Assembly: GCA_001770955.1 (NCBI GenBank) | Contig: MESL01000029.1 | Span: 62,694-126,693 of the forward strand | Length of the DNA: 64,000 nt | Direction: 5' to 3' | Source: Burkholderiales bacterium RIFCSPLOWO2_12_FULL_65_40 | Lineage (GTDB): Bacteria > Pseudomonadota > Gammaproteobacteria > Burkholderiales > Burkholderiaceae_C | Part shown: piece after piece, positions 9,271-59,929 of the stretch | How the letters are laid out: each line of letters starts with the position of its first letter | Position numbering within the stretch: the stretch's first letter is position 1 | Notes under the pieces: generated by a model | What the model saw: the letters and a program-made list of their open reading frames with translations, nothing else | What the model was told of the DNA's origin: nothing | Database searches by the model: none | Program-made: the position numbers and the translations under genes

Positions 9271-10194
9271 TCATTTGCGGCCTTTTTTACGGACCGCCGT
9301 TTCGGGCTGGTCGGGCTCGGGGCGTTGTGGCAGCTGGCCGGTCAGAGGCTGCAGCAGCAACACATGGCGCGCCCCCTGGATCGCGGCCGCAGGTTCGCAA
9401 TAGATCCGCGCGAAAGCCGAATCGGCCCGCCGCTCGACCCGCACCACACGGGCCACCGGCAGACCGGGCGGGTACACCCCATCCAGGCCGCTGGTCGTGA
9501 GCTGATCGCCTTCCTGGACATCGGCGTTGGCGGACACGAAGCGCAGCTCGATACCGCCGCCGTGGCTCGCGACCGGGTCGCCATATGCCACGCCCCGGGC
9601 ACTGGTGCGGTTGTTGAGAACCGGGATGGCCTGCTCACGGTCGGTCAGCAGCGTGACCTCGCTTACAAACGGATAAACCCGCGTCACCTGGCCCAGAATA
9701 CCGGCTCCGTCGAGCACGGGCGAGCCCGGCAGCACGCCTGTATCCTGACCCCGATCCACCATGACCCGCCGCGAGTACGGGTCGGCCGTATCGTAAAGAA
9801 TCTGTGCCGCCTGGGCCGGCACTTGCAAGCGCTCGCGCAGGTCGAGCAATCGCCGCAGGCGGTCATTCTCCTGCCCCAGCTGATCCGCCTGGTGGGCGCG
9901 CTGCGCCAGCAGGGTCAACTGCTTGCGCGCGGCATCGGACTGCGCCTGTGCGCTATCCAGGGACTGAAAATACCGGGTGGCGTGATCCACCATGGCCACG
10001 GGCTGGAGCATGAGCCACTGGGCGGGATACAGCACGGTGGCCACGACCTTGCGCAGCGGTTCTGCCACCCGGAAGCGCGCATCTGCCACCATCAAAAACA
10101 GCGCCAAGGCGCTGTACAGGACAAGTTGGGAAAGGGCCGAGGGCCCCTGCCGGAAGAAGGAGGGGGCTCTGCGGTCCAGGGTTCCAAGCGGCAT
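9271..10194 (-). CDS. mreC: Rod shape-determining protein MreC
   Basis: Bitopic inner-membrane protein of 307 residues that links cytoplasmic MreB to periplasmic PBP2. One membrane helix lies near residues 22-40. It is followed by a coiled coil (about 75-115, QSDAARKQLTLLAQRAHQAD) and two beta domains containing RRVMVDRGQDTGVLPGSPV and the conserved GDQLTTSGLDGVYPPGLPVA. The last 25 residues are Pro/Lys-rich (ending RKKGRK). Length and gene order are normal. Confidence 0.95.
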   Translation of the reverse strand: MPLGTLDRRAPSFFRQGPSALSQLVLYSALALFLMVADARFRVAEPLRKVVATVLYPAQWLMLQPVAMVDHATRYFQSLDSAQAQSDAARKQLTLLAQRAHQADQLGQENDRLRRLLDLRERLQVPAQAAQILYDTADPYSRRVMVDRGQDTGVLPGSPVLDGAGILGQVTRVYPFVSEVTLLTDREQAIPVLNNRTSARGVAYGDPVASHGGGIELRFVSANADVQEGDQLTTSGLDGVYPPGLPVARVVRVERRADSAFARIYCEPAAAIQGARHVLLLQPLTGQLPQRPEPDQPETAVRKKGRK

Positions 10195-10318
10195 GGTGTG
10201 TCCCGGTCAGGCGTGGCTCATGGGGTGGTTCTCCACCATGGCAGCATACCGCGAGAAAACACGTTGATTCATGCCCATGTTGGCGTGCGGGGCCCGCATG
10301 TGGCTAGGCCCTCGTGCA

Positions 10319-11362
<1,044 letters not shown>

Positions 11363-15019: not shown

Positions 15020-15147
15020 ATGAAACTGGCGCGCCCCAGGCCAGGGCCGCCGCGCAAGGGCCGCCCCGCCGCGCTGGCGGCGTCCCCCTGCCCGCAGCGC
15101 GCAGCGATGCGAGAGCGGGGGGAAGGCGCGAAGCGACTCAGGGGGGG
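15020..15147 (-). repeat. Dispersed GC-rich repeat family 2, copy 1
   Basis: Read on the minus strand this begins CCCCCCCTGAGTCGCTTCGC and runs through a C-rich block, a palindromic ATCGC/GCGAT-type core and a CGGCGGGGCGG block to GCGCGCCAGTTTCA. The same succession of blocks recurs at 35415 and 54571 on the plus strand. It fills most of the 236 bases between gatB and the DUF4124-like gene and contains no credible ORF. It lies immediately 3' of both convergent genes. Confidence 0.7.
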
Positions 15148-15159
15148 TGTTGTTTCACT

Positions 15160-15852
15160 TCAGCGCGCGCTGGAAGCGCCCGAACCCACCGGCGCTGACA
15201 TCACGGAAGTGCCCCGCTGGCTGGCCCAGAGCTGCTGAAGCTGGGCCAGCTCCGCATCAAACCGCTGGTGCACGCGGCGCTTTTCCTGGTCCTGACCGGC
15301 GATGAAGCGTTTTTGCTCCAGCACGTCCTCGTCGTTCTCCGCCAGCTGGCGTCGCAGCGTCATGGGCGCCTTGGAGGGGTCCTTGCGGTAGAACTCCATC
15401 TCCTGGTCGAGCGTCTTGCGCCGGGCCTGCAGCTCGGCAATGCGTTTGGTGGCAATGGTCGTCACCTCGTCCACCTGCGCCAGGCTGGTGGCACGCTCGG
15501 CATCGTGGGCGGCCTGATCGGGGTAACGGGCCAGCAGCACCCGCTCGCGCCGGCGCTCCTCGGCAATGCGGTTGCGCTCTTCCAGCTCCTTGCGGCGCTG
15601 TACCTCCAGGGCTTCGCGCTCCTGCTGCGTGAGGGTGGGGCCGATGACGCGGCGCAGGGTTCCGGACGGCCCCAGCTCGCGCTGCTCCCGGTCGATGCAT
15701 TCGGGGATGGGACGGTCGGACGTGAGCTTGCGCCCCTGCTTGTCCACACAGGTGTAGATGCTCAGGGCACCCGGACTGGTTTGCGCGGCCACGGCGGCGC
15801 ACAGGCCTGCCAGCAAGCCGCCCACTCCGTATTTCCACACCCGGTTTTTCAA
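15160..15852 (-). CDS. DUF4124-like periplasmic coiled-coil protein
   Basis: Exported protein of 230 residues and unknown function. A signal peptide (KNRVWKYGVGGLLAGLCAAVAAQ) is followed by a short Cys-containing domain (LSIYTCVDKQGRKLTSDRPIPEC, residues about 30-52), as in DUF4124 proteins. The rest is a long charged helical region rich in Arg/Glu (about 75-215) that should form a coiled coil. I chose the TTG at 15852 because an AGGA site lies seven bases upstream and the signal peptide starts there. An in-frame ATG at 15876 would add eight charged residues and overlap the pyrE end. Confidence 0.75.
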   Translation of the reverse strand: MKNRVWKYGVGGLLAGLCAAVAAQTSPGALSIYTCVDKQGRKLTSDRPIPECIDREQRELGPSGTLRRVIGPTLTQQEREALEVQRRKELEERNRIAEERRRERVLLARYPDQAAHDAERATSLAQVDEVTTIATKRIAELQARRKTLDQEMEFYRKDPSKAPMTLRRQLAENDEDVLEQKRFIAGQDQEKRRVHQRFDAELAQLQQLWASQRGTSVMSAPVGSGASSAR

Positions 15853-17392: not shown

Positions 17393-19348
17393 ATGCCCGA
17401 ATCCCTCGACACCAACCCGGCACCGGCCCAGTGCTTTCGCCCTGAAAATAACGAGGCGCTGTGGAAACTGGTGAGTGCGCCGCACCCCGTCGTGGGCAAG
17501 GCGCACCACCTCGGCGAGGCCTTGCTGCACGCCGGAGCGATCACCCCCTCGGCCCTGGCCGACAGCCTGGCCATCCAGCAACTGGAGCGAGAGCGGGGCA
17601 AAGACCGGCCCATCGGGCAGATCCTGATCGAGCGCGGGGATCTCACCGAGGAACAATTGAGCCAGGTGATCGCCTCCTGGCTGGGGGAATACATGGTGCA
17701 TCCGGGCCTGCTGAGCCCGGATGCCACGGCCCTGGCCCTGGTGCCGCGCGCGGTGGCCGAGCGCGAATCCGTGCTGCCGCTGATGACCCACGAGGACGCC
17801 CTGGTCGTCCTGATGGCCGACCCGTATGACCGCGTGTTGCTGGACGAGCTGCGCTTTCTCACGCAGCGGCGCCTGATACCGCTGCAGGCCGCGCCCGGCA
17901 CGCTGATGCCGGCCATCGCCAATGCCTACAGCGTTCACCCGACCCAGAGCAGCAAGACCACCAAACCTTCCGGCCCGGCACCCCGGGGCACCAATGGCCT
18001 GCGCAGCCCGGCGGCAGTGCGCGCCACCTCGCAGGAACTGGCCACCAACCTGAGCAGTGCGGGGTCCGAGACGGACACCGAAGAAACCGATGTGGTGAGC
18101 GAGGCCGACAACACGCTGGTGCGGCTGATCAACACCGTCATCGACGAAGCCATTGCCCACCGCGCCTCCGACATCCACATCGAAACCGAGCCCGCGCCGC
18201 AGAACGTCCGCGTGCGGCTGCGCATCGACGGCGATCTGGTGCCCTACCTCGAACTGCCTGCGCGCTTTCGCTATGCCATGGTGGCACGCATCAAGATCAT
18301 GGCGAGCATGGACATCTCGGAGCACCGCAAACCCCAGGATGGAAAGATCGATTTCTCCCGATTTGGCGGCCCGCCGGTGGAGTTGCGCGTCGTCACCGTG
18401 CCCACCTCGCGGGGGCTGGAAGACGTGGTGCTGCGCCTGCTGGCAGGCGCCAAGCCGCTGCCGCTGGAAGACATCGGCCTGAGCACCAACAACCTCACCA
18501 CACTGCGGGACGTGGTAAAGAAGCCCTATGGCCTGATCCTGGTGGTCGGCCCCACGGGTTGCGGCAAGACCACGACCCTGCATTCGGTCATCCGCGACAT
18601 CAACACCGCGGGCCGCAAAATCTGGACGGCCGAAGACCCGATCGAAATCACCCAGAGCGGCCTGCGCCAGGTGCAGATGAACCCGCGCATCGGCTGGACC
18701 TTTGCGGCCGCCATGCGCACCTTTCTGCGCGCCGACCCCGATGTGATCATGATCGGCGAAATGCGCGACGAGGAAACCGCGCGCATCGCCATCGAGGCTT
18801 CGCTCACGGGGCACCTGGTGCTGTCCACGCTGCACACCAATTCGGCCCCCGAGAGCATTGCGCGTCTGCTCGAAATTGGCCTGGACCCGTTCAATTTTTC
18901 GGATTCTCTGCTGGCCATCCTGGCCCAGCGCCTGGTGCGGCGCCTGTGCAAGGCCTGCCGCGAGTCCTGGATCGCGGACGACGACACCTTGCTCGGGCTG
19001 GCCTCGCAATACCTGGCCAGCGGAACCCACAACTCCCCCGAGGACCGCGCCGCCCAGGTGGACCGCTGGCGCAAGAACTACGGCAACGCGTCCGGAGAAG
19101 TCACCCTGTGGCGCCCCAGGGGCTGTGACGAATGCGAGCACCACGGGTACCGTGGTCGCATGGGCATCCACGAACTGATGCTGAGCGATGACACCATCCG
19201 CCAGCACATCCGCCATCGCGCGCCCGCGTCCGACATCCGGCATGCGGCGCTCTCGGCCGGCATGCTGACCCTGCGCCAGGATGGCATCGAGAAGGTGCTG
19301 CAAGGACTGACCGACATGACCGAAGTGGTGGCCGCCACCAATTTGTGA
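17393..19348 (+). CDS. PulE/GspE/PilB-type secretion or pilus ATPase with MshEN-like N-terminus
   Basis: Hexameric ATPase of 651 residues of the type that drives pilus or pseudopilus assembly. Residues 39-62 and 73-96 are two tandem motifs of the LGxxLxxxGxxTxxxLxxxLxxQ type that define the c-di-GMP-binding MshEN domain; the leading Arg is replaced by His or Pro. A Ser/Thr/Pro linker (about 185-240) leads to the ATPase core: Walker A G386-PTGCGKTT, Asp box DVIMIGEMRDEETARIA and His box HLVLSTLHTN. The zinc-type tetracysteine is complete (C519/C522 and C578/C581). No pilus or secretion genes are adjacent. A paralogue lies at 57545-59929. Confidence 0.9.
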   Translation: MPESLDTNPAPAQCFRPENNEALWKLVSAPHPVVGKAHHLGEALLHAGAITPSALADSLAIQQLERERGKDRPIGQILIERGDLTEEQLSQVIASWLGEYMVHPGLLSPDATALALVPRAVAERESVLPLMTHEDALVVLMADPYDRVLLDELRFLTQRRLIPLQAAPGTLMPAIANAYSVHPTQSSKTTKPSGPAPRGTNGLRSPAAVRATSQELATNLSSAGSETDTEETDVVSEADNTLVRLINTVIDEAIAHRASDIHIETEPAPQNVRVRLRIDGDLVPYLELPARFRYAMVARIKIMASMDISEHRKPQDGKIDFSRFGGPPVELRVVTVPTSRGLEDVVLRLLAGAKPLPLEDIGLSTNNLTTLRDVVKKPYGLILVVGPTGCGKTTTLHSVIRDINTAGRKIWTAEDPIEITQSGLRQVQMNPRIGWTFAAAMRTFLRADPDVIMIGEMRDEETARIAIEASLTGHLVLSTLHTNSAPESIARLLEIGLDPFNFSDSLLAILAQRLVRRLCKACRESWIADDDTLLGLASQYLASGTHNSPEDRAAQVDRWRKNYGNASGEVTLWRPRGCDECEHHGYRGRMGIHELMLSDDTIRQHIRHRAPASDIRHAALSAGMLTLRQDGIEKVLQGLTDMTEVVAATNL

Positions 19349-19422: not shown

Positions 19423-19824
19423 CTACCGGGCAAAGCCACCCCCGGGGGCCTGCGCATCCGCGATGGCCGCCAGCAGGTCGCTGATGCGCACCGGCTTGCC
19501 GAGTACGCGGGACACCCCCAAGGCCTGCAGGCGCGCCTCGTCGACGGGCTTGCCGTCGGTGGCCAGCACAACGACCCGGACATCGGGCGCCGTGGCAAAC
19601 CGGCCCCGCCGGAGATCGCTGAGCAGTTCCATCGCCTGCGCGCCCTCCTGCACGTCGAGCACCAGGCCGTCAAAGGCATCGCCCGCCAACAGCGTGCGGG
19701 CGCGGCCCACATTGCTGGCCTCATCGAAGTCCACCATGCCCAGATCGCGGGCCACCATGACGATGGTGCGGCGCAAGACAAACTGCGGCTCGATCAGCAG
19801 GACCCGGGGCAGCGGCGCGGTCAT
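19423..19824 (-). CDS. Stand-alone receiver-domain protein (CheY-like)
   Basis: Single receiver domain of 133 residues with no output domain. Strand beta-3 ends LVLDVQEG, providing the phospho-acceptor Asp, and beta-5 ends RVLGKPVRI with the conserved Lys-Pro. The usual acidic pair at the end of beta-1 is only one Glu (LLIEPQF), so metal binding and phosphorylation could be weak. It overlaps the GAF gene by four bases (ATGA at 19821-19824) and is the last gene of the MCP/CheW/GAF/receiver operon. I infer it is the output or adaptor of that pathway. Confidence 0.82.
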   Translation of the reverse strand: MTAPLPRVLLIEPQFVLRRTIVMVARDLGMVDFDEASNVGRARTLLAGDAFDGLVLDVQEGAQAMELLSDLRRGRFATAPDVRVVVLATDGKPVDEARLQALGVSRVLGKPVRISDLLAAIADAQAPGGGFAR

Positions 19825-20318
19825 TCCCCGTCCTCGCGTCCGGCCACGGTCTCGTTCGCCAGGCGGCGCAGGGCATCCAGAATCGACAGCTCCACCGGCC
19901 CCAGGGTGCGCGGCACGGTATCGATCACGCACAGCGTGCCAATGCGGTGCCCTCCGGGGGCGCTGAGCGGCGCACCTGCATAGAACCGGATATGCGGCTC
20001 GCCCGTCACCAGCGGGTTGTCGGAAAAGCGGGGGTCGCGGCTGGCGTCCTCGACGATGAAAAAATCATTCTTCATGATCGCGTGCCCGCAAAACGAGATG
20101 TCGCGAGGCGTCTCTGTGGCGTCGAGGCCGACACGCGCCTTGAACCACTGGCGTTGTCCATCGACCAGCGTCAGCAGGGCAATCGGCACATCGAGCTGCT
20201 CGGCCACAAAGCGGGCGAGGCGGTCAAAGCGCTCCTCGGGCGGTGTATCCAGCAACAACAACGCGCGCAGGGCGCTCAGCCGTTCGTCCTCGTCAGCGGG
20301 TATGGGTGCGGGGGTCAT
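19821..20318 (-). CDS. GAF-domain protein
   Basis: Cytoplasmic protein of 165 residues consisting of one GAF domain (about 25-160). Visible family marks are ERFDRLARFVAEQLDVPIALL, DISFCGHAIMKNDFFIVEDA and RFYAGAPLSAPGGHRIGTLC. This subclass often precedes histidine kinases or GGDEF domains; here it stands alone. It may bind a small molecule or serve as a dimerisation partner. It is translationally coupled to the receiver gene and lies 36 bases after the CheW gene. Confidence 0.85.
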   Translation of the reverse strand: MTPAPIPADEDERLSALRALLLLDTPPEERFDRLARFVAEQLDVPIALLTLVDGQRQWFKARVGLDATETPRDISFCGHAIMKNDFFIVEDASRDPRFSDNPLVTGEPHIRFYAGAPLSAPGGHRIGTLCVIDTVPRTLGPVELSILDALRRLANETVAGREDGE

Positions 20319-20354
20319 GGGTGAATCCTGTCGTGATAGGGCTGTTGCGTTGTG

Positions 20355-21803
20355 TCAGCCCAGCAGATAGGCCATCTGGGCCAGATCGACCACCACCAGG
20401 TTGGCGTGGTCCAGAGCGCCTTTGGCGTTGATCAGCCCGAACTCTCCCATCGCGCCCATGCGCATGCCGCTGCGCCGCACGCTGTGCGCGGGCAGCCAGT
20501 CGCACAGGCTGCGGATGGCGATGCCGATGGGCGGGGCAGTGCCCCCGGGCGCCTGGACGAGCACCGCCAGCAGCGGGTCGTTCTGCCCCCCGGTGCGGGC
20601 AATGGCGGGCAGGCTGACGAGCCGGACCGTCTGGCCACGCCAGGCCAGAACCGCCTGGCGCCCCTGTCGAAGATCTTCCCTGGCCTGTGTTGGCAGCTCC
20701 ACCACACCCACAATGCCCTCCACCGGGGTGGCATAGCGCTGATCGGCATCGAACACCAGGTAGGGCAAGGGCTCGGTGGCGTCTGACAGCTCTGCGTCAC
20801 TGCGGGCCAGCGTGGCGGCCTGCGCACTGCGGCTGATGGATGCTTCGGGCGTCAGGCCAAAGAGCTTGCCGACATCCAGCACCTGCAGCTTGCCAAGATC
20901 CGGCAGCAGAACCACGCCGGCCACCAGGGCCTCACCGGGCGTTCGGGCCACCGCCTCCAGCACCAGATCGACGAACTGCTCGCACGCCGAGACCGTCAGT
21001 CCGAGCACCAGCGGCCCCTGACCCAGCAGCACCATCCACGGCGCGGCGTTGCGATCGCTGGCCTGACGGCCTTCGCTGATATCGACCAGCGGCAGCTTGC
21101 GCCCCTGCCATTGGCCAATGGCCCAGCTGCGCTGTGCACGCCCCAGCGCCAGCTCCGTCGCAGGCACGGGCGCCACCCGCTCGACGGCGTCCACCGGCAC
21201 CGCCCAGTGCTCCACCCCGATGCGAAACACCGCGTGGCGCTGCGTGCGGCTACCCGGTGGGCTGGCGCGGGCCGATGCCACCGCGTCGGCAGCCCCCGCC
21301 GGAGCCAGCTCTGCCGCCGCGCACCAGGCCCGGCCCAGTTGCATCAGCCGTGCCACCTCCAGGATGCACAGCGTCGGCGCACCAGCGGACGCGGGAACCA
21401 CCGACTCGAACAGCTCGTTCTCATCCGGCGTGTGGTGCACCCTGCGGATGTCTGCGGCAGCCACCGCTTTCACGCCCAGCACGGCATCCACCCGGATACC
21501 CACCAGAGCGCCTGCGTGCTGCAACACCAGCAGCCGCGGCACCCCGGCGGCGGCGTCGCCCCCGGTCTCCAGCGGCACCCAGCGCTCCAGCGCGACGATG
21601 GGCACCGCCGCACCGTCCACATCGGCCACGCCCAGCAAGCCGCCGCTGCGGCGTGGCAGCGCCGTCAACCCCTGGGGCGGCAGTGGCAGGGCCTGCTGGA
21701 CCTGATCGATGGGAACGGCGATGTGGCAACGGCCCACGCGCACATGGACATGCTGCACCAGCGCCAAGCGGGAGGTGGCCGGTGGCGGGATCACGTCAGG
21801 CAT
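20355..21803 (-). CDS. Triple CheW-domain scaffold protein
   Basis: Protein of 482 residues built from three CheW/SH3-like domains (about residues 12-160, 185-320 and 345-480). Each shows the pattern of a hydrophobic strand, an AVP or ATPV turn followed by a Val/Ile-rich stretch, and a later PLVDI-like strand. CheW couples receptors to the CheA kinase, so three in tandem suggest an array scaffold or a multi-receptor adaptor. There is no CheA in the window. The start at ATG 21803 (MPDVIPPP) is preferred; a TTG at 21815 would overlap the MCP stop. Domain assignment rests on pattern and operon context; domain 3 is the most divergent. Confidence 0.78.
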   Translation of the reverse strand: MPDVIPPPATSRLALVQHVHVRVGRCHIAVPIDQVQQALPLPPQGLTALPRRSGGLLGVADVDGAAVPIVALERWVPLETGGDAAAGVPRLLVLQHAGALVGIRVDAVLGVKAVAAADIRRVHHTPDENELFESVVPASAGAPTLCILEVARLMQLGRAWCAAAELAPAGAADAVASARASPPGSRTQRHAVFRIGVEHWAVPVDAVERVAPVPATELALGRAQRSWAIGQWQGRKLPLVDISEGRQASDRNAAPWMVLLGQGPLVLGLTVSACEQFVDLVLEAVARTPGEALVAGVVLLPDLGKLQVLDVGKLFGLTPEASISRSAQAATLARSDAELSDATEPLPYLVFDADQRYATPVEGIVGVVELPTQAREDLRQGRQAVLAWRGQTVRLVSLPAIARTGGQNDPLLAVLVQAPGGTAPPIGIAIRSLCDWLPAHSVRRSGMRMGAMGEFGLINAKGALDHANLVVVDLAQMAYLLG

Positions 21804-21811
21804 CGACCGGC

Positions 21812-23542
21812 TCAACCCGCTTTGCGCGGGCTGCCACTGCCTTGCAGGTCATCAAGCAGCCGGGCCACATCCTGGGTCGAATGTTCCTGCTCCTCGGTGG
21901 CCATGCGGATCTCGCTGATGGAGCGGGTGGTTTTCTCGACCGCGCCCAGAATGCGCGAGAACGCGGCATCGACCTCCTCGGACAGGCGGCTGCCCTCGGC
22001 CACGCGTCCCACGGTCTGGTGGATCAGCTTGGCGATCTCGCGGGCGGCCAGCGACGACTTCTCCGCCAGCTTGCGGACTTCGTCCGCCACCACGGAAAAG
22101 CCCACCCCTTGCTCGCCCGCGCGCGCCGCCTCGATGGCCGCGTTGAAGGCCAGCAGATGGGTCTGGCTGGAAATTTCGCTGATCGTGTCCACGATCTCAT
22201 GGATGTCGGACGACGAGCGCTCGATGGCGATGATCGCGTCACGCGAACGGCGCACCCGCTCGGTTCCGTCCTCTGCCTCGCGCTGCGTCTGTTCGGCCAG
22301 CTCGGTGGAGCGGCCCGCGCTGCGCGCCAGCCGCTGGATCGACTCGCTCATCGCGCGCAGCACGGCGGTGATGTCATCCACCTTCTGCGCCACCGCACGC
22401 TCGCGCTGCACCTGGGCCGTGATGTCCACCGCGTATTTCACCACCTTGTAGGGTCGGCCATCGACATCGAGAATGGGGTTGTAGGTCGCCTGGATCCAGA
22501 CTTCGGCCCCGTGCTTGCCGATGCGGCGATAGCGTGCGCTCTGGAATTTCCCCTCGCCCAGATCGGCCCAGAAGTCGCGGTACGCCTGGGTCTGCACCAG
22601 GCCCGGCTCACAGAACATGCGGTGGTGCTGCCCGCGGATTTCCGCCAGGGTGTAGCCCATGGTGCGCAGGAAGTTCGGGTTGGCCACGAGCACGTTGCCC
22701 TCCATATCGAACTCGATCACCGCTTGCGAAAGGCCGATGGCATCGATCTTGCCCTTGGTTTCGGCAGCCGACACCATGTCGTTGGTGATATCGACGGCGA
22801 ACTTCACCACCTTGTAGGGCTTGCCGGTCGCGTCCAGGATGGGGTTGTACGAGGCCTGGAGCCAGATCTCCGTGCCATCTTTGGACAGGCGGCGAAAGCG
22901 TCCGGCAAAGAACTCGCCCCGGCCCAGCCGCTCCCACAGGTTCGCATACTCGCTTGAGGCCGCAAACCCAGGCTGGCAGAACATGCGATGGTGCTGCCCA
23001 AGAACCTCCTCCCGTCCATAGCCAAAGGTGTTCAGGAAATTGGCGTTGGCGTCCAGGATATGACCGGCGAGGTCGAACTCGATCACGGCCTGCACCCGGT
23101 GGATCGCCGCAATCTTGCCCTCGAACTCCGCCTGCTGCACCCGCTGGGCGGTGATGTCGGTGGCCAGCTTGACGACCCCCACCGTGCGCCCCTCCCCATC
23201 GCGCACCGGGTTGTAAGACGCCTGCAGCCAGACCTGCTGACCCGTCTTGGTGACGCGCAAGAACACATCCTCGCGCACCTGTCCGGCACGCAACCCCTCC
23301 CACAGCGCCTGGTACGACGCGCTGCTTGTGACCTCCGGGGGGCAGAACATGCGGTGGTGCTGGCCCACGACCTCGTCGGCGGAGTAACCCATCAGGTCCA
23401 GGAACAGGCGGTTCGCCCGCAGCACCCGGCCCTCCAGATCGAACTCGATCACGGCTTGCACATGCTCCAGCGCATTGAGCAGCGCCGCCGTGCGCGCGGC
23501 CTCGTGGGAGGCGGTCGGGAGCGTTTCCATTGGAGTGTTCAT
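21812..23542 (-). CDS. Soluble methyl-accepting chemotaxis protein with three PAS domains (BdlA-like)
   Basis: Cytoplasmic chemoreceptor of 576 residues without membrane helices. Three PAS domains (about 25-130, 147-252, 269-374) each carry GQHHRMFC, at residues 60, 182 and 304, a spacing of exactly 122 residues. The receptor domain (about 380-560) has the tip QTHLLAFNAAIEAARAGE followed by VGFSVVADEVRKLAEKS. The Cys and His in each PAS motif suggest heme, flavin or redox sensing as in BdlA/Aer-type proteins, but this is inferred. It is the first gene of an operon with the triple CheW, GAF and receiver genes. Confidence 0.9.
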   Translation of the reverse strand: MNTPMETLPTASHEAARTAALLNALEHVQAVIEFDLEGRVLRANRLFLDLMGYSADEVVGQHHRMFCPPEVTSSASYQALWEGLRAGQVREDVFLRVTKTGQQVWLQASYNPVRDGEGRTVGVVKLATDITAQRVQQAEFEGKIAAIHRVQAVIEFDLAGHILDANANFLNTFGYGREEVLGQHHRMFCQPGFAASSEYANLWERLGRGEFFAGRFRRLSKDGTEIWLQASYNPILDATGKPYKVVKFAVDITNDMVSAAETKGKIDAIGLSQAVIEFDMEGNVLVANPNFLRTMGYTLAEIRGQHHRMFCEPGLVQTQAYRDFWADLGEGKFQSARYRRIGKHGAEVWIQATYNPILDVDGRPYKVVKYAVDITAQVQRERAVAQKVDDITAVLRAMSESIQRLARSAGRSTELAEQTQREAEDGTERVRRSRDAIIAIERSSSDIHEIVDTISEISSQTHLLAFNAAIEAARAGEQGVGFSVVADEVRKLAEKSSLAAREIAKLIHQTVGRVAEGSRLSEEVDAAFSRILGAVEKTTRSISEIRMATEEQEHSTQDVARLLDDLQGSGSPRKAG

Positions 23543-23848
23543 GGGAAAAATGCCTGGTGTTGGGGCCCTGCGCCACGGGGTGAACGGTGTGCCAAATCCT
23601 CACGGGATCGCGGTGGCGGCCGAGGGCATGCCACCGGGCCGACTCTGCAACCAAATGAAACTTCAAGTGTCAGTATGGCTGAAATCGGCTTTTCTGGCAC
23701 GGCAGCCCCCAGCAGGCTTCCTGACCCGGGCATCGGCAAAACTACACTTCTACACTTCTACACTTCTACACTTCTACACTTGCACCCATGGTGGAACGCC
23801 GTGCACCGAAGTCTGGCGTTCTTGTTCTCTGCACCCTGCCCCTGTTCC
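23543..23848. other. Divergent intergenic region (306 bases) with an octanucleotide repeat
   Basis: This gap separates the MCP operon (minus strand) from the metallo-hydrolase gene (plus strand) and must hold both promoters. Its only clear structure is the (CTACACTT)5 array at 23742-23781. I found no convincing sigma-70 hexamers, ORF or terminator in it. Confidence 0.6.
23742..23781 (+). repeat. Octanucleotide tandem repeat (CTACACTT)x5
   Basis: Five uninterrupted identical 8-bp units, ending 67 bases before the start of the metallo-hydrolase gene. Such arrays change length by replication slippage. In a promoter or leader this would alter spacing rather than reading frame. Confidence 0.95.

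Positions 23849-57544: not shown

Positions 57545-59929
<2,385 letters not shown>

Follow-up and report, generated by a model that had tools for sequence, protein, structure and literature searches.

A soluble chemoreceptor and an adaptor protein with three CheW domains, encoded side by side and mostly without a gene for the kinase CheA nearby, form a conserved and widespread pair. We describe it from a 64,000-nucleotide (nt) stretch of the genome of Burkholderiales bacterium RIFCSPLOWO2_12_FULL_65_40 (contig MESL01000029.1, positions 62,694–126,693; the whole stretch is referred to as the window), where the two genes lead a four-gene operon that also encodes a GAF protein and a receiver. The receptors of the pair make up one clade with a signature of their own at the tip of the signalling hairpin, receptor and adaptor have diverged congruently, CheA is rarely encoded beside them, and nearly all carrier genomes encode a CheA elsewhere. 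An earlier note on this DNA had described the operon as a CheA-less chemosensory-like module of four genes that might act on a converging ATPase. At its core, the widespread pair with its tip signature, the present finding reaches further than the note; its frame is narrower, since the GAF protein, the receiver and the ATPase are local.

The usual view takes receptor, adaptor and kinase as a single core unit that cannot be separated. Receptors that bring a three-domain adaptor of their own, lack a neighbouring kinase gene in 34 of 36 loci and have an altered kinase-contact residue offer a natural test of the role of CheW in the absence of CheA: assemblies of CheW alone might signal, modulate or just serve as a scaffold. 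A search of the literature on multi-CheW proteins and orphan receptors, with most subscription papers outside its reach, found no description of the pair. Vass, Bourret and Foster have reportedly mentioned rare multi-domain CheW proteins in their work on CheW architectures, which may cover the adaptor class.

The operon, the adaptor and the receptor

The four minus-strand genes of the earlier note were confirmed in coordinates and domain content by their open reading frames (ORFs) and by Pfam (Table 1). They are transcribed in the order receptor, three-CheW protein, GAF protein, receiver, and the tight spacing that the note had claimed was found as well: 8 nt and 36 nt, followed by a 4-nt ATGA overlap between the GAF and receiver genes. 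Starting the adaptor at an alternative TTG (21815) would make it overlap with the stop codon of the receptor gene. A scan for promoters and terminators gave no more signals than it did in shuffles. As the note had it, the operon stands without CheA: none was found within the 64-kb window at E ≤ 1e-20. The genome comprises 3.77 Mb in 57 contigs and probably belongs to the Comamonadaceae.

Table 1. Genes of the operon and the neighbouring ATPase gene, with positions in the window.
Feature	Position	Strand	Basis
Soluble chemoreceptor, 576 amino acids (aa), three PAS_3 and a short MCP (methyl-accepting chemotaxis protein) signalling hairpin, tip QTHLLAFNAAIEAARAGEQGVGFSVVADEVRK	21812..23542	-	Pfam, hydropathy, clade and tip signature
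Adaptor with three CheW domains, 482 aa from ATG	20355..21803	-	Pfam, AlphaFold model, Foldseek, hhalign
Stand-alone GAF protein, 165 aa, accessory, window's family only	19821..20318	-	Pfam GAF, 59.6 bits
Stand-alone pseudo-receiver, 133 aa	19423..19824	-	Pfam Response_reg, alignment of six sequences
Converging MshEN/GspE-type ATPase, judged to lie outside the system	17393..19348	+	Encoded in 20 of the 26 genomes of the genus; operon in 3 of these 20

Pfam detected CheW in three stretches of the adaptor, whose domains extend approximately over residues 12–163, 183–318 and 345–482. Taken alone, domain 3 stayed below the Pfam threshold (21.9 bits against a cut-off of 23.5, E = 1.4e-4); as a profile compared with Escherichia coli CheW in hhalign, it matched with a probability of 96.5 and E = 7.4e-10. 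An AlphaFold model based on an alignment of 23 sequences had a predicted local distance difference test (pLDDT) score of 80 and a predicted TM-score of 0.43, and its third unit was β-rich. The modeled domains are fair, while their mutual placement is uncertain. Foldseek, run on the whole model, returned 18 PDB matches at E ≤ 0.001, all of them CheW or CheA entries, with the fitting domain not told. Searching with the adaptor sequence gave no match among PDB chains at E ≤ 1 (phmmer) and none among plasmids (tblastn). The adaptor has the CheW fold by Pfam, AlphaFold, Foldseek and hhalign, and the three domains claimed in the earlier note were upheld by Pfam, the comparison of the third-domain profile and the AlphaFold model; structure prediction gave no grounds for a lower count.

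Related adaptors were recognised by Pfam to varying extents. Ten paired CheW proteins had three CheW stretches in eight cases, two in one and one in one, and five CheW proteins of the window's family had three stretches in two cases and two in three. In L022 the last third of the adaptor does not align, and the L050 adaptor is cut at the contig end. All three adaptor domains have the CheW fold. From the CheW and CheV adaptors the protein is set apart by its three domains per chain, by the lack of a fused receiver and by the position of its gene, which adjoins one receptor class. For CheV, a role as adaptor of certain receptors has been discussed (PMC4742279; this paper and those below are cited from the portions that were accessible).

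The receptor consists of three PAS_3 copies and an MCPsignal domain according to Pfam, and has no transmembrane stretch, its hydropathy maximum being 0.97 compared to 2.4–2.8 in seven membrane receptors. Its hairpin and that of E. coli Tsr could be aligned gaplessly over 175 residues. The chain is thus soluble, its PAS domains stand in tandem and its MCP domain is short, and Pfam and hydropathy bear out the likeness to BdlA that the earlier note had drawn. BdlA (PA1423) and McpS (PA1930) of Pseudomonas aeruginosa are likewise soluble receptors with tandem PAS domains, their signalling domains are short compared with the other receptors of PAO1, and their PAS domains have been assigned flavin adenine dinucleotide (FAD) (PMC8694187). 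The pair-class receptors differ from them in PAS copy number, which ranged from two to seven across 36 receptors. We know of no dedicated three-CheW partner of BdlA or McpS.

Distribution of the pair and the receptor clade

The distribution of the receptor was followed in 80 named loci, the best among the matches listed by similarity to the window receptor and chosen regardless of adaptor, with patterns taken from an alignment of pair members. In 23 of these, a CheW protein of 444–542 aa started between −4 and +51 nt from the receptor stop, the adaptor starts having been picked by a script; the other 57 had none. Carriers of the pair include Herbaspirillum, Duganella, Pseudomonas graminis, Phytohalomonas, Salinisphaera, Novosphingobium, Jannaschia, Limnobacter, Geodermatophilus, Dactylosporangium, Virgisporangium, Paractinoplanes and a Bryobacterales bin, which we take to represent several phyla.

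Scans for the adaptor by family and order, in which four to six candidates were scored per genome so that the frequencies are lower bounds, found the three-CheW protein in at least 6 of 250 genomes of the window's family and at least 8 of 399 genomes of its order, the window's own included in both; across the order, the receptor was not the same in all. Within the genus, 3 of 26 genomes had it, and three more gave weak matches to another kind. The same type of scan in 250 genomes of another family, presumably the Halomonadaceae, gave adaptor matches in at least 33, four of them weaker. The receptor lay directly upstream of the adaptor in all 20 Halomonadaceae loci examined, which had been picked by their adaptor.

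Neighbouring genes were counted in a set of 36 loci (35 fetched loci and the window) with flanks of varying length. Halomonadaceae loci, with flanks of about 1.5 kb or less, were excluded from the neighbour counts for CheA, GAF and receiver. A GAF and a receiver gene accompany the pair in six of the 36 loci, all within the window's family: besides the window, the four genes occur in the same order in L018, L019, L020, L028 and L029, while L021 and L022 have the receptor and the CheW protein only. The expectation of the earlier note that the operon is kept in relatives was therefore borne out by five further loci, but its four-gene module holds only for the window's family. What is conserved widely is the receptor–CheW pair.

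Other genes stand beside the pair in other lineages. In L124 and L126, from one genus in another family of the order, the genes run receptor, CheR, CheD, three-CheW protein, with no CheA in the stretch, so that adaptation enzymes are present without a local kinase. The next ORF past the adaptor is alike in 9 of the 20 Halomonadaceae loci (L142–L146, L149, L151, L157 and L159), with a CorA-type transporter in L145, and by eye a translation-factor-like ORF follows the adaptor in L148, L152, L153 and L155.

The receptors were compared in an alignment of 125 sequences: 54 with an adjacent adaptor, two in which the adaptor follows CheR and CheD, 57 from the named loci without an adaptor, five beside another kind of multi-CheW protein, and seven membrane receptors from the window's genome and Phytohalomonas. 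(The 54 pair-class rows count one locus twice, as L045 and L141 are the same; eight further control receptor loci were intended, and L139 was left out.) Several positions of the hairpin tip separate the 54 from the 57. By Tsr numbering, residue 380 is Phe in 53 of the 54 (Leu in the exception, L160) and Leu in all 57 others; residue 397 is Ser in all 54 and Ala in 56 of the 57; and residue 394 is Leu, Val or Ile in 50 (Val in the window), compared to Arg or Lys in 56 of the 57. His at position 392 (49/54) and Lys at position 405 (52/54) occur in none of the others, and Glu at position 408, present in all 54, is rare among them. E402 and R404 are kept in 53 and 54 of the pair-class receptors, respectively.

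All 56 pair-class receptors formed one exclusive clade among the 125 tips, with a support of 0.95, or 0.97 when the six signature columns were masked. The tip signature thus marks one class by descent; it did not arise in 50 separate events. Over the 54 pairs, the distances among receptors were correlated with those among adaptors (r = 0.89, with none of 2000 permutations as high), as expected under co-inheritance. The signature of F380, S397 and a hydrophobic residue at 394 offers a simple means of spotting such receptors in any genome; a literature search for the tip strings returned no paper.

A different multi-CheW protein was found beside a receptor in L030, L031, L032, L128 and L129. It resembles the adaptor of the pair in size (513–527 aa in L030, L032 and L128), in its three CheW stretches (L032 and L128) and in being receptor-adjacent. 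It differs in that CheA lies in the same stretch in L030 (915 aa), L032 (910 aa), L128 (724 aa) and L129, and in that the receptor has the ordinary tip with L380, A397 and K394. The L030 receptor, of 642 aa and with two MCPsignal stretches, also has the ordinary tip.

CheA in carrier genomes and the contact residues

Within the flanks available, CheA was encoded beside the pair in two of the 36 loci (L046 and L059); one lying shortly past the end of a small contig would escape this count. Somewhere in the genome, CheA was present in 62 of 63 carriers (34 of 35 and 28 of 29 in two sets sharing one genome). The window's genome has two CheA. Exactly one was found in 26 of the 29 Halomonadaceae genomes searched, a set that includes nine without a receptor check and excludes the four weaker adaptor matches; in those 26 genomes, that single CheA must serve the pair, if any does.

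The carrier without CheA in its assembly was Phytohalomonas tamaricis (L045, G663). It gives 15 MCP matches, among them that of the pair, and lacks FlhA; its only CheW domains are the three of the adaptor. We considered strict independence from CheA on the strength of this genome alone, and rejected it: because FlhA and other CheW are also missing, a missing region of the assembly is as likely as a loss.

In E. coli, R394 of Tsr contacts either the P3 domain (D316) or the P4 domain (E361) of CheA in two conformations of the kinase (PMC6746300). The same residue pairs with E18 of CheW, while E402 and R404 pair with CheW R40 and D107 (PMC6954272). Among 69 domains from the adaptors of the pair, the equivalents of these CheW residues were retained in 0 (E18), 1 (R40) and 13 (D107), and the absence of E18 goes with the loss of R394 in the receptor. 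The ordinary CheW of the window's genome retains all three; its four other CheW domains have neither E18 nor R40, and one has D107. At the position of CheW R62, domains 1, 2 and 3 carry Arg in 16, 11 and 21 of 23 members, respectively; in the window's adaptor only domain 3 does. With contact residues distributed so unevenly, the heads of the adaptor are not equivalent, and their grip on the receptor need not copy that of E. coli CheW. The Lys at receptor position 405 was also considered as a lost CheA contact, and this was rejected, since the Thermotoga maritima receptor has Lys at the equivalent position and contacts CheA through it (PMC6746300).

Accessory genes, neighbours and possible modes of action

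The receiver passed the Pfam Response_reg threshold narrowly (31.1 bits against 30.2). As read from the alignment, the sequence E-P replaces the usual acidic pair, which is the degenerate acidic pocket pointed out in the earlier note, while the Asp, Thr and Lys are retained. A pseudo-receiver has been defined as lacking one of five conserved receiver residues (PMC12632262), and by its sequence the window protein is a pseudo-receiver in this sense. The phospho-Asp is lost in two of six proteins (Gly in L018 and Ala in L020, as aligned), and a motif at the start, E-x-QFVLRRT, is invariant in all six aligned sequences, the window's included. Because one face is conserved without the phosphorylation site, the alignment suggests that the receiver is a docking protein. 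The GAF proteins retain two Cys residues (in SFC and GTLC) in the five sequences aligned.

The converging ATPase gene lies 74 nt from the operon on the opposite strand, and adjoins it in all three carriers of the same genus and in none of five loci of other genera. Of the 26 genus genomes, 20 have the ATPase; three of these 20 loci have the operon, between the ATPase and a metallo-beta-lactamase-superfamily gene, and no operon gene was found in the other 17. ATPase and metallo-beta-lactamase-superfamily gene follow each other at 24–63 nt in eight of the 20, the second neighbour falling outside the stretch in nine. These loci show that the ATPase does not need the operon, which is an accessory cassette there, and we rejected the functional tie to the ATPase that the earlier note had proposed. 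A second T2SSE/MshEN ATPase, with a GAF domain in front, is encoded on the minus strand at 57545–59929, and is 56% identical to the operon-side ATPase over residues 215–645 of the latter.

The reading we favor, tentatively and at slightly below an even chance, is that the pair is a dedicated receptor–adaptor cassette modulating the resident CheA array. The soluble receptor would sense an intracellular cue via its PAS copies, likely redox state through FAD by analogy with BdlA and McpS, and its hairpins would form trimers of dimers. Fold, linkage and co-inheritance suggest that the tips would be bound by the receptor's own three-domain CheW protein, through which the receptor may join, compete with or dampen the array on a CheA encoded elsewhere, and internal state would thereby bias motility or surface behavior. 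In the window's family, the GAF protein would probably be a second input and the pseudo-receiver a phosphorylation-independent protein contact. In its favor count the direct adjacency in 23 of the 80 loci and in 20 of 20 Halomonadaceae loci, the exclusive receptor clade, the correlated distances, the retained residues at 402 and 404, and the CheA found in 62 of 63 carriers, which is the only one in 26 of the 29 Halomonadaceae genomes. Several points weigh against this cassette-and-array reading. The CheA tally of 62 in 63 is a plain count and no enrichment, the rate in non-carriers being no part of it, and the P. tamaricis assembly has none. The evidence of the contact residues is mixed, as R40 and D107 are mostly absent in the adaptor, though their receptor partners at 402 and 404 are kept; that the adaptor-side residues are mostly not those of E. 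coli weakened the reading slightly from the even chance we had given it. The sequences make the usual form of kinase control doubtful, because the Arg or Lys at the CheA-contact position 394 is replaced by Leu, Val or Ile in 50 of the 54. This last substitution, with E18 gone in all 69 adaptor domains, would instead fit a kinase-free unit, in which one CheW protein with three heads covers all tips of a trimer of dimers and excludes CheA, and the receptor signals by direct protein contact with the GAF protein and pseudo-receiver here and with other partners elsewhere. The idea is grounded on the fit of a three-CheW chain to the E. coli array, where the three sites of each receptor trimer are occupied by one CheA P5 domain and two CheW (PMC6954272), and it draws further on the 34 of 36 loci without CheA beside the pair, on the phospho-Asp lost in two of six pseudo-receivers, and on the precedent of FrzB from Myxococcus xanthus, a divergent CheW that acts with its receptor without kinase binding (PMC6952110). 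FrzB is small, and strands 4 and 5 are missing from its subdomain 2 (PMC6952110). By eye, no clear missing block was apparent in the alignments of the adaptor domains. We consider a kinase-free unit unlikely, given that a CheA is present in 62 of the 63 carrier genomes and lies within the locus in L046 and L059; moreover, with an R62-type Arg only in domain 3 of the window adaptor and R40 and D107 mostly absent from adaptors, three equivalent tip-binding heads are not assured, and these adaptor-side residues lowered our estimate a little. Rather doubtful, too, is the broader proposition that the pair is a complete CheA-less receptor–adaptor device, spread across phyla as a two-gene cassette with extras that vary by lineage (GAF and pseudo-receiver in some, CheR and CheD in others, nothing in the rest); the adaptor-side residues lowered our estimate of this slightly as well.

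A BdlA-like regulator of biofilm dispersal acting through cyclic di-GMP (c-di-GMP) enzymes is improbable: the receptor has the shape of BdlA and McpS, with their short signalling domain and FAD-assigned PAS domains (PMC8694187), and in L060 (Duganella qianjiadongensis) an HD-GYP-like gene (DUF3391 and HD, 10045–11298) begins 22 nt past the three-CheW gene, but HD-GYP was seen in that locus only. The other downstream ORFs contained no c-di-GMP gene by eye (with Pfam applied to L060 and L145 only), and the ORF shared by 9 of 20 Halomonadaceae loci, with its CorA-type transporter in L145, points elsewhere. Regulation of the converging MshEN ATPase, and with it of a type IV pilus or secretion, has the 74-nt spacing and the three same-genus carriers in its favor, yet the opposite strand, the five loci of other genera and the 17 genus loci without the operon leave it hardly credible. 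Equally remote is a decaying, functionless leftover of chemotaxis, which could account for the divergent third CheW domain and receiver and for the patchiness of the operon, which 3 of the 26 genomes of the genus carry; the frames are intact and translationally coupled, the receptor tip is near-invariant over phyla, and the adaptor adjoins the receptor in all 23 clade members among the 80 best loci.

Two minor features were noted near the operon and on the same contig. The octamer CTACACTT occurs five times as a perfect repeat at 23742–23781, in the spacer that separates the receptor gene from the divergent metallo-beta-lactamase-superfamily gene. Outside the window, at positions 15031–15458 of the contig, an MCP signalling domain is split over two frames.

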